From Anabaena sp. UHCC 0187 (GTDB lineage: Bacteria; Cyanobacteriota; Cyanobacteriia; Cyanobacteriales; Nostocaceae), in the NCBI RefSeq assembly GCF_009712035.1, contig NZ_VILB01000001.1, positions 62,001 through 126,000 of the forward strand: a stretch of DNA of 64,000 bases, read 5' to 3'. Each line of letters opens with the position of its first letter. The stretch's first letter is position 1. A program made the position numbers and the translations under genes. The notes under the pieces were generated by a model. The model was given only the letters and a program-made list of their open reading frames with translations, did not search any database and was not told where the DNA came from. Below, one piece after another: positions 38,659-41,299 of the stretch.

Positions 38659-38880
38659 ATGAAGTCTTTACAAGACTACACCACAGTTATTCGTCCTGAT
38701 GACAATGGTACTTATGTTGCTTATATCCCAGCAATTTCTGGTTGTCACGCTTGGGGAAAAACACCAGATGAAGCACGTCTTGAACTGAATTATGTATTTG
38801 AAATGATTCAAGAAGAATACACAGAAAAAGGTTTAGTTATGCCAGATGATATTGAATTAGTAATAGCAAATGCCAGCTAA
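38659..38880 (+). CDS. hicB: HicB family antitoxin
   Basis: 73 residues. YTTVIRPDDNGTYVAYIPAISGCHAWGKTPDEA is the partial RNase-H-like HicB domain. The short C terminus lacks a long DNA-binding extension. It overlaps the hicA toxin frame by 11 bases, so translation is coupled. In this antitoxin-first order HicB would neutralise HicA. Confidence 0.9.
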   Translation: MKSLQDYTTVIRPDDNGTYVAYIPAISGCHAWGKTPDEARLELNYVFEMIQEEYTEKGLVMPDDIELVIANAS

Positions 38881-39082
38881 AGCAAGTGAATTAGAAAGAG
38901 TTGCCAGAAAACTCGGTTTTAAAAAAGTCCGTCAAAAGGGTAGTCATGCACGTTGGCAACATTTAGACGGACGTGCAACCACTATTCCTATTCATCGAAA
39001 TTCAGAAATTGGTGGTTGGTTATTTCATGAAATTCTCAACCAGTTGAATATTACAGAGGAAGAATTTAATCAACTCAGATAA
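38870..39082 (+). CDS. hicA: HicA family mRNA interferase toxin
   Basis: A 70-residue dsRBD-like toxin. LERVARKLGFKKVRQKGSHARWQHLDGR carries the catalytic His of the GSHxxW/Y motif, followed by TTIPIHRNSEIGGWLFHEIL. The catalytic site is intact, so the module looks active. Confidence 0.92.
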   Translation: MPAKASELERVARKLGFKKVRQKGSHARWQHLDGRATTIPIHRNSEIGGWLFHEILNQLNITEEEFNQLR

Positions 39083-39140: not shown

Positions 39141-40847
39141 ATGAGTCAGTGTCTTAACCCCGACTGTTTACAGCAAAATCCACCAGCGACGATATTTTGT
39201 CAACGTTGTGGGAGTAAACTAGTATTACAAGAACGGTATCGTGGTGTGCGGGTTATTGGAGAAGGTGGATTTGGGAGAACGTTTTTAGCAGTAGACGAAC
39301 AAAGATTAGATACTCCCTGTGTGATTAAGCAATTTTTACCCCAACAGTCGGGAAGTGCGGCTTTAGAAAAAGCGACGGAGTTATTTAAACAAGAAGCTTT
39401 TCGACTGCGAGATTTAGGGAAACATTCACATATTCCTGATTTACTAGCATTCTTTCCTCAAGAAGGAAGATTATATTTAATTCAGGAATTTATCGAAGGT
39501 AAAAATCTGTTAGATGAATTACAACAAAAAGGAAAATTCAGCGAGTCGGAAGTTAAACAGATATTAATTGAATTATTACCTATTTTACAATTTGTCCATG
39601 ATAACAAAGTCATTCACAGAGATATTAAACCAGAAAATATTATTAGAAGTTCTCAAACTGGTGCTTTATTCCTAATTGATTTTGGAGTTTCTAAGGAAGT
39701 TGGTGGCAGTGTTCTGACTAGAGTGGGGACGATTACGGGAACGCCGGGATATGCACCACCAGAACAATTTCGCGGGATGGTTTTTCCTAATAGTGATCTT
39801 TATAGTTTAGCTGTTACTTGTATTCGTTTATTAACGGGATGTTTCCAAAAAGCTGATGATTCTGATGCACTTTTTGATTCTATGAGAATGCAGTGGATAT
39901 GGAAACAATATGTTTCTGTGAGTCAGGAGTTAGAAATAGTTTTAGATAAGATGTTGCAAGATTTACCGATTAATAGGTTTCAGTCAGCAAATGAGGCTTT
40001 AGCAGAATTACAAACTCAGAAATTTCCAACACTATCAAAATTATCAGTTTCTTCTAAACCTGTACAAACAGTTTTACCAAAAATTAATTCCCCAAAAATA
40101 CCCTCATCCTTTATAGAAAATTTAGGTAATTATGTATTTTTAGAAATGGTAAAAATACCAGGGGGAAAATTTATTATGGGTTCACCACATGGGGAAGGAG
40201 ATGATTCTGAAAAACCTCAACATCAAGTTATAGTTCCACCTTTTTTTATGGGGAAATATCCTGTTACTCAAGCACAATGGGAAAGAATAGCAGCTTTACC
40301 GAAAGTGAAGATTGATTTACACCCTCAACCCTCCCACTTCAAAGCTAAAGGTGTAAATCTTCCAGTTGAAAGAGTATCATGGCATGACGCGCAGGAATTT
40401 TGCGCCAGAATAAGTAAACATACAGGTAAAATATATCGCTTACCTAGTGAAGCAGAATGGGAGTATGCTTGTCGTGCTGAAACCACAACTCCTTACTATT
40501 TTGGTGACAGTATTACCTTAGATTTAGCAAATTATAGTAAATTTATATTCGGAAAAACCACAGATTTAGGAAAGTTTCCTCCCAATAATTTTGGCTTGTA
40601 TGATATGCACGGTAATGTATGGGAGTGGTGTGAAGATGGCTGGCATGAAAATTATATAAATGCGCCTATTTGGCCTAATAACAGTATTCCTTGGATTAGT
40701 AGCAATGATGTCCATGTAATGCGCGGTGGTTCATGGGGTAGTGATGCTGAGACTTGCCGTTCCGCATATCGTCACTACAGCAACCCATACGACAGGTGTT
40801 ATGACTACGGTTTTCGGTTGGTAGTTTCGGGTGGAGGGACTCTTTAA
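39141..40847 (+). CDS. Ser/Thr protein kinase fused to FGE-sulfatase (C-type-lectin-like) domain; probable DGR target
   Basis: 568 residues. An N-terminal zinc ribbon (CLNPDCL...FCQRCGS) precedes a Hanks kinase (~30-290) with GEGGFGRTFLAVD, VIKQF, VIHRDIKPENII and LIDFGVSK, then APPEQ. A linker leads to a formylglycine-generating-enzyme/SUMF1-like domain (~330-568): MVKIPGGKFIMGSPHGEGDD, PVTQAQWERI, RLPSEAEWEYACRA, DMHGNVWEWCEDGW, VMRGGSWGSD, GFRLV. The enzyme's copper-binding Cys pair is not evident, so this is a binding rather than an oxidase domain. Residues 533-556 show the codon pattern of a diversity-generating retroelement variable region. Likely a cytoplasmic sensor kinase. Confidence 0.9.
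   Translation: MSQCLNPDCLQQNPPATIFCQRCGSKLVLQERYRGVRVIGEGGFGRTFLAVDEQRLDTPCVIKQFLPQQSGSAALEKATELFKQEAFRLRDLGKHSHIPDLLAFFPQEGRLYLIQEFIEGKNLLDELQQKGKFSESEVKQILIELLPILQFVHDNKVIHRDIKPENIIRSSQTGALFLIDFGVSKEVGGSVLTRVGTITGTPGYAPPEQFRGMVFPNSDLYSLAVTCIRLLTGCFQKADDSDALFDSMRMQWIWKQYVSVSQELEIVLDKMLQDLPINRFQSANEALAELQTQKFPTLSKLSVSSKPVQTVLPKINSPKIPSSFIENLGNYVFLEMVKIPGGKFIMGSPHGEGDDSEKPQHQVIVPPFFMGKYPVTQAQWERIAALPKVKIDLHPQPSHFKAKGVNLPVERVSWHDAQEFCARISKHTGKIYRLPSEAEWEYACRAETTTPYYFGDSITLDLANYSKFIFGKTTDLGKFPPNNFGLYDMHGNVWEWCEDGWHENYINAPIWPNNSIPWISSNDVHVMRGGSWGSDAETCRSAYRHYSNPYDRCYDYGFRLVVSGGGTL
40737..40808 (+). other. Putative DGR variable region (VR) at the 3' end of the kinase-FGE gene
   Basis: Codons 533-538, 543, 545-548, 550-551 and 553-556 are GGT AGT GAT GCT GAG ACT; TAT; CAC TAC AGC AAC; TAC GAC; TGT TAT GAC TAC. 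All but one end in C or T and nearly all are one or two substitutions from AAC/AAT. They alternate with invariant CRSA, R, P, R and GFR. This is what adenine mutagenesis of an Asn-rich template yields. The preference for C-ending codons is unlike the rest of this AT-rich gene. Confidence 0.6.
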
Positions 40848-40880
40848 TTCTTTACCCTTTCAAATACTTTTAATCGAAAA

Positions 40881-40922
40881 TGTCAGAATCAGGATATCCA
40901 GGATTTTAGGATTTACAGGATT
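40881..40922. repeat. TCAGGATATCCAGGATT dispersed repeat
   Basis: Close copy of 15071-15115 and inverted relative to 41170-41215. Confidence 0.75.
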
Positions 40923-41169
40923 TGATTTTCAGCTAAATCCCTACACTGGTTTAAAAAGAAAATCTCTTCCTTTTCTTCTTTGCGTCTTTTCTTCTTTGCG
41001 ACTTTGCGCGAAATAATTGTCTGATAGCGAAGCGTGGCGTAGCCATATCAGGATATCCACCGATTAAAGGATTAGCAGGATTTTGTGTGAAGTTTGATTT
41101 TTGGGGATGTGAGAATTTTTGGATGTTACCTGAATTATGATGTAGGAAAGATATGATAGTTCATCAAAT

Positions 41170-41215
41170 AAAAATCCTGTAAATCCTCAAATCCTGAGTA
41201 TCCTGATTCTGACAA
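41170..41215. repeat. Inverted copy of the TCAGGAT dispersed repeat
   Basis: AATCCTGTAAATCCTCAAATCC then TGAGTATCCTGATTCTGAC is the reverse complement of 40881-40922 with few differences. The pair could form a large cruciform. Confidence 0.75.
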
Positions 41216-41299
41216 TTAAAAGTTATAGACTTCAAGAATGTATTTATTATATTTTGAGGTTATGTTATTTTAAATTTGTACCCATAATTGGAAAAACAA

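Follow-up and report, generated by a model that had tools for sequence, protein, structure and literature searches.

Diversity-generating retroelements (DGRs) use a reverse transcriptase (RT) and the accessory protein Avd to copy a template repeat into adenine-randomised cDNA, which is then pasted over the target, a mechanism established for DGRs other than the one considered here. Variable protein 1 of Treponema denticola (PDB 2y3c), which we take to be DGR-linked, carries a domain of the FGE/C-type-lectin type and is presumably a cell-surface rather than a signalling protein, with no kinase domain. Members of the PvdO/FGE family are enzymes, and we know of none described as DGR targets. A general link between FGE/C-type-lectin (CLec) domains and DGRs is drawn by Vallota-Eastman et al. 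2020 (PMC7517822), who also describe remote targets and cyanobacterial DGR variable proteins that combine kinase and CLec domains, just as the sequence-only reading of our locus had stated. As hypotheses, these authors suggest that binding of a ligand or partner by the CLec/FGE module would steer the kinase or release it, and it is further proposed there that the diversifying parts may be removed once a good variant has been selected. A gene that kept its variable region (VR) without an adjacent RT, and in this respect resembles ours, is all3226 of Nostoc sp. PCC 7120, which shows remnant homology between template and VR but has no proximal RT (PMC7517822). Our search of the open-access literature retrieved no DGR study in Aphanizomenon and none of DGR loss in Nostoc, which does not prove their absence from print.

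The kinase gene described here adds another case to the kinase-lectin targets and the remnant VR described in PMC7517822, and we consider it likely that its tail is a former remote DGR VR that has since lost its machinery and is now locked. The source genome (G000) is a draft of 5.1 Mb in 57 contigs with a completeness of 99.99%, and positions refer to the 64-kb window that we analysed as a whole (G000:C11:62001-126000; G, C, and L numbers denote genomes, contigs, and loci). The features of the gene are as follows:

39141..40847, + strand: kinase-FGE gene, 568 aa, with a four-cysteine prefix, a Ser/Thr kinase, and a C-terminal FGE/C-type-lectin domain
39243..40001, + strand: protein kinase domain, residues 35-287 (PF00069, E=9.8e-39)
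40143..40823, + strand: FGE-sulfatase (C-type-lectin-like) domain, residues 335-561 (PF03781, E=3.3e-54)
40722..40736, + strand: constant left frame RGGSW, its R, G, G, and W invariant in an alignment of 18 proteins (A2)
40737..40808, + strand: VR core of 24 codons, marked by an excess of third-position C, its codon table, orthologue differences, and a match to the template of G002
40755-40766, + strand: constant CRSA box inside the VR, part of the 24-codon core
40837..40860, + strand: VR-type 3' end, GGACTC and the following bases, spanning the stop codon, with a putative IMH-like role

The two Pfam matches bear out the view of this gene as a Ser/Thr kinase with an FGE/C-type-lectin tail, and HRDIKPEN and DFG motifs can be seen by eye in the kinase domain. 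Its protein ends in RGGSW-GSDAET-CRSA-YRHYSNPYDRCYDY-GFRLVVSGGGTL, the last part opening with GFRLV, and thus has the proposed layout RGGSW-variable-CRSA-variable-GFRLV. However, the RGGSW-CRSA-GFR frame is common among FGE domains (A2) and is therefore no evidence of a DGR by itself; the S of RGGSW is replaced by Q in three orthologues (L023, L024, and L026). Like the kinase-CLec proteins of PMC7517822, the protein has an N-terminal Ser/Thr kinase and a C-terminal CLec/FGE module with the VR inside this module, near the 3' end of the gene. Sequence searches of the PDB matched its FGE domain to PvdO (5hha, E=2e-32) and to the T. denticola variable protein (2y3c, E=6e-25), the latter match spanning residues 108-239 of a 246-residue query and including the VR. 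The domain and a similar terminal frame are shared with the PvdO/FGE family (5hha, 2aft), though the focal domain probably binds rather than catalyses; by analogy, the module would probably sense a ligand or select partners of the kinase. A predicted structure of the domain (mean pLDDT 56, below 50 in the VR) was left unused.

Between our gene and its orthologue L020, the kinase region (alignment codons 0-200) shows 22 silent and three non-silent changes. Since the kinase gene is intact and these changes are mostly silent, the cell probably still uses the protein with the tail as it now stands.

A HicB-like/HicA toxin-antitoxin pair (38659-39082; HicA E=2.7e-16, HicB-like under the Pfam cut-off) lies directly 5' of the gene, and a 46-nt inverted repeat of 91% complementarity (40878-40923 / 41172-41217) lies 3' of it; repeats of similar look also follow the second VR gene of L008.

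Search for DGR machinery in the source genome and its relatives

The sequence-only reading had noted neither RT nor template repeat in the window, and both observations hold: none of the six RVT_1 matches of the genome falls within the 64 kb, and neither does any match to the template-RNA model described below. Its expectation that a DGR-type RT and a template differing at adenines would be found elsewhere in the genome was not borne out, as neither was found in the 57-contig assembly, nor was Avd. Five of the six RTs have the motif QGGVVSP and are assigned to the group II type from this motif and their length, whereas the sixth is a UG19; what we take to be the motif of DGR-type RTs is [IVL]GxxxSQ. 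A query with a cyanobacterial DGR RT matched only the same six proteins in G000, and the RVT_1 search was able to see a DGR RT, since a true one scores E=3.4e-25 with the same Pfam model (PF00078). No template repeat was found in G000 by blastn with the VR and two same-genus templates or by the template-RNA model (E≤0.01, window included), and Avd (PF22296) gave 0 matches at E≤0.01. Ongoing hypermutation by a resident DGR is thus rejected for this assembly. In this the locus differs from the proteins counted as diversified in PMC7517822, which come from genomes with RT and template, and from PCC 7120, which keeps two DGRs elsewhere in its genome, with the RTs all3497 and all5014.

Several RTs were dismissed as DGR RTs on inspection. 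L006 (G000:C5:437703-438371) best matches UG19; it is a 700-aa UG19-type RT (PADLOC E=3.6e-173) filed there under DRT defence. Short RTs of ca. 330 aa in the relatives carry QGAVISP (six candidates at L051-L053 and L054-L057, seven loci), and two others were set aside likewise, L058 with QGGVISP and L059, in which the pattern found no such motif. L001-L005, the five that we assign to group II from their motif, are closely similar to each other and sit on five G000 contigs.

Judged by matching contigs, the relatives in the genus correspond to strains named Aphanizomenon, Dolichospermum, and Anabaena, including A. flos-aquae FACHB-1287, with which G006 agrees in match position and tail. With the RT of BPP-1 as query, 27 of 60 genomes matched at E≤1e-8 (our own is counted among the 60 and gave no match), many weaker matches being other RTs. 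Within the genus, a DGR RT with IGNLTSQ is present in 5 of 16 genomes (G002, G004, G005, G011, and G013), while G014 has a weak match to the BPP-1 RT only, in a 552-aa frame. The accessory protein at the DGR loci matches bAvd (PF22296), and among the 15 other genomes Avd matches are strong in five, reduced to a 27-residue stub in a sixth (G010), and present as weaker short stubs in three more. An Avd remnant of 20-25 residues with an internal stop (L228-L232) occurs in G002, G005, G006, G012, and G015, and sits behind an FGE tail in four of these five genomes, the tail of G005 being unseen by the pattern. The VR upstream of this decayed stub differs among the four species in which the tail is seen.

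From the relatives we took 14 DGR loci, and where a VR-template pair was seen, its differences cluster at template adenines. They affect 13 of 33 adenines but 0 of 86 other bases at L083, 13 of 25 but 0 of 91 at L085, and 17 of 28 but 2 of 89 at L081, where a DGR RT lies near a kinase-FGE paralogue 65% identical to the focal protein; the finder of VR-template pairs is lenient to adenine mismatches, and these counts lean towards the DGR reading. At L084 (G011), where the contig stops within Avd, neither template nor VR was found, and no adenine-type pair was listed for L086 and L091.

In Anabaena sp. 90, a plasmid of 56 kb (pANA02) carries Avd, a template, and a DGR RT 95.7% identical to that of G002, which makes both loss of a DGR and a missed replicon in our draft plausible. 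The focal VR might then still be rewritten in trans by a DGR that is plasmid-borne or lies in sequence missing from the assembly, and with a draft assembly the absence of a plasmid-borne DGR is unproven. A sister VR at C11:44k, near-perfect outside adenines (see below), likewise argues for recent templating in the lineage. However, we consider such an active remote target unlikely, given that 57 contigs at 99.99% completeness contain no DGR RT, Avd, or template and that the VR is unchanged between G011, which has a DGR RT, and G015, which gave no match to the DGR RT query.

Codons, templates, and the 3' end of the tail

The initial suspicion of a DGR target had come from variable codons that end in C or T and could derive from asparagine codons. 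Such endings are indeed enriched in the VR (20 of 24 codons vs. 257 of 544 elsewhere in the gene, p=4e-4), but the choice of residues confounds this excess, since Y, H, N, D, and C are encoded by pyrimidine-ending codons only, which weakens it as proof of a DGR. The choice between C and T among these codons is free of the confound, and here C is taken in 10 of 20 cases in the VR compared to 44 of 257 elsewhere (p=0.0014). Altogether, the share of third-position C rises from 8% in the rest of the gene (44/544) to 42% in the VR (10/24; p=1.9e-5), and any 24-codon window ending before codon 530 reaches at most six. It is this C that sets the VR apart, while the stated preference for T-ending codons elsewhere in the gene needs correction, T and A both being preferred there (39% and 38%). 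Nevertheless, C-rich third positions are neither specific to VRs nor a mark of DGRs alone, since in a control from G000, the FGE gene L226, 12 of 24 tail codons end in C without an adenine signature. Opposite the asparagine columns of two equal-length templates from relatives, the VR codons end in C or T in 12 of 12 (L072) or 12 of 13 cases (L074), but the template's own third base is retained in only 7 of these 12-13 codons.

A PF03781 search of G000 returned six FGE genes, and tails were tested against 19 templates from relatives in protein-guided alignments, which do not share the leniency of the pair finder, with L223 left out as its tail was unrecognised by the pattern. Compared with its best-fitting template (L066), the focal VR has mismatches at 16 of 31 adenines and 14 of 65 other bases (p=0.0034); four of the 19 templates give p<0.01, which is marginal after 19 tests, and as judged from these alignments the adenine signature of the focal VR itself is weak. 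The sister VR at C11:44k (L221) mismatches the G002 template at 19 of 30 adenines and a single one of 63 other bases (18 of 29 and 1 of 64 with a plain nucleotide aligner), and 18 of the 19 templates give p<0.01. For the second sister VR (C1:43k, L222), the best-fitting template leaves mismatches at 14 of 29 adenines and 7 of 67 other bases, with 10/19 templates at p<0.01, compared to 0/19 for each of the FGE genes L225 and L226.

When G000 was searched by BLAST with the G002 template plus the RNA that follows it, 25 matches were obtained, three of them convincing. All three are VR tails, i.e., C11:44690 (E=3.7e-29), C1:43627 (8.3e-13), and the focal gene (4.9e-6; 40720-40785, 76%), followed by a next best match at 0.2; they stop by query base 133 of 311 and hence leave the RNA scaffold uncovered. 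The G013 template has a single match in G000 (C1:43627, E=5.1e-24; next 0.7) and does not match the focal gene.

Beyond the codons, the 24 bases at 40837-40860 are identical (24/24) to the 3' end of an RT-linked VR from another family (L092, G037). Among 240 loci, they recur exactly only in copies of the focal locus, in orthologue L025, and in L092/L068, which are one place in G037. Counted by eye, 11 of 14 RT-linked VRs but 0 of 11 templates have GGACT close to their 3' end, and it is present at 40837, so that the focal VR differs from template 3' ends in an IMH-like manner. Of the sister VRs, L221 has GGACT and L222 has GTACT, while the FGE genes L225 and L226 have no such end. At the focal gene, the VR-type 3' end is found in our genome, G006, and G002, with the exact 24 bases also in G012 (L025) and one altered base (GGATT) in G003 and G007; it is absent from orthologues L021, L022, and L027 (G011, G015, and G004).

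An ordinary FGE tail, i.e., C-type-lectin loops that diverged under selection with no DGR ever involved at this gene, would agree with the frame common in the family, with the marginal adenine test, and with L225 and L226, neither of which has an adenine signature even though L226 is C-rich. We regard it as very unlikely, because it leaves unaccounted for the 24-base 3' end that runs over the stop codon and is common with L092, the preference for C among synonymous C/T choices, the missing GGACT end of L225 and L226, and the uneven codon differences between close orthologues reported in the following section.

Versions of the tail among related species

Orthologues were compared between species, with one genome per species, in a codon alignment of eight of the nine genomes with an orthologue at least 81% identical; L025 (G012) was omitted as no suitable frame was found. 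The VR exists in four versions among these eight orthologues. The first is shared by L021 and L022 (G011 and G015), which are identical in the VR (0 of 72 bases and 0 of 24 codons differ) compared to 21 of 600 differing bases in the remainder of the FGE domain. L023, L024, and L026 form the second version (at most 2 of 24 codons different), L027 alone is the third, and our own gene with L020 makes up the fourth, in which 8 of 24 VR codons differ, with four non-silent changes among the first six codons and four silent ones among the last 18. Between versions the VR can differ wholesale even where backbones are close, as in L021 and L026, which differ at 20 of 24 VR codons but, in the stretch immediately before the VR (alignment codons 400-535), at only 16 of 131. 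Differences within one version are few and none is of the asparagine-codon type, unlike the adenine-specific variation that had been foreseen among relatives. Infrequent replacement of the whole VR with conservation afterwards is consistent with a tail for which rewriting or swapping lies far back and which has been retained since.

The VR versions form a mosaic. L023 resembles L020 in its kinase and downstream DNA but L024 and L026 in its VR, and differs from L026 at 24 of 63 codons at alignment codons 470-535 but at only 1 of 24 in the VR; this near-identity despite divergent neighbouring codons is a sign of tail exchange between species or of strong selection. Our VR has its last codons (CYDY) in common with L021 and differs further left, and from sequence alone this pattern and that between our gene and L020 look more like recombination or point change than like retrohoming from the 3' end. 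These mosaics, including the likeness of our VR and L021 in the right part only, favour gene conversion, by which the tail would have come from another VR gene without ever being a retrohoming target itself. We hold this to be rather unlikely, as the VR-type 3' end at the focal gene and at its counterparts in G006, G002, and G012 (and as GGATT in G003 and G007) is what one would expect if the gene had itself been a target, a point limited by the missing end in G011, G015, and G004. A tail gained by conversion would still be DGR-derived.

The focal tail as a former remote DGR target, now locked, is thus the reading that we favour. A DGR origin is indicated by the third-position C excess, the shared 24-base 3' end, and the wholesale VR differences of L021 and L026, together with the G002-template BLAST that finds VR tails, the adenine signature of the sister VR, and the DGR cassettes of the genus. 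That the tail is a frozen leftover follows from machinery not found in G000 and from near-unchanged VR versions common to related species, as in the identical VRs of L021 and L022 and the solely silent changes against L020 in the last 18 VR codons. Against it speak the weak adenine signature, the G013 template that misses the focal gene, the template third bases kept in only 7 of 12-13 codons, the C-rich L226, the 3' end absent in three orthologues, VR mosaics unlike retrohoming, and the draft assembly. The proposed DGR target is supported as to its origin but not as to present hypermutability. As a sequence of events, an ancestral DGR RT with Avd would have written adenine-randomised template cDNA over the 3' end of the kinase-FGE gene; the lineage would then have lost RT, Avd, and template, or the plasmid carrying them; one version of the tail would have become fixed; and the present tail would be an ordinary selected part of the FGE/C-type-lectin module.

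More broadly, and only as a tentative and somewhat doubtful picture, the DGRs of bloom-forming Nostocales could be visiting mutators, at times plasmid-borne, that diversify several chromosomal kinase-lectin tails in trans and are lost again, leaving locked tails to be inherited and traded between species, the focal VR being one of them. Once the machinery has been lost, a DGR target may persist as a selected, fixed, putative binding tail on an apparently intact kinase, and species pairs with and without RT in one genus make possible a direct test of the rate of tail rewriting and of the time to freezing.

A conserved RNA downstream of DGR templates

Downstream of cyanobacterial DGR templates we found a conserved RNA of ca. 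150 nt at the 17 loci of alignment A1 (e.g., L082:4607-4758 and L083:4664-4817), which comprises 17 of 19 templates and leaves out L065 (end-cut pattern unmatched) and L090 (insert of ca. 60 nt). Across these 17 sequences, compensatory changes occur at 22 of the 31 predicted pairs. Paired cells amount to 96.2%, compared to 81.2% after shuffling and 33-51% when partners are slid, the latter comparison favouring the predicted structure because this structure derives from the same alignment. Four loci scanned against Rfam 15 gave no match at gathering thresholds, and we found no report of a structured cyanobacterial template RNA in the open-access literature, which is not proof of its absence from print.

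Of the 16 genomes in the genus, five (G002, G004, G005, G010, and G013) were matched at E≤1e-20 by a model of the template-linked RNA, with weak matches in G001, G007, and G011; stricter filters applied in searches above 40 genomes. The model offers a way to locate DGR templates even after the RT has been lost. Strong matches at G010:C1:1876494, G024:C1:2671640, and G036:C155:14739 are apparently solo templates, since these genomes gave no DGR RT match at E≤1e-8.
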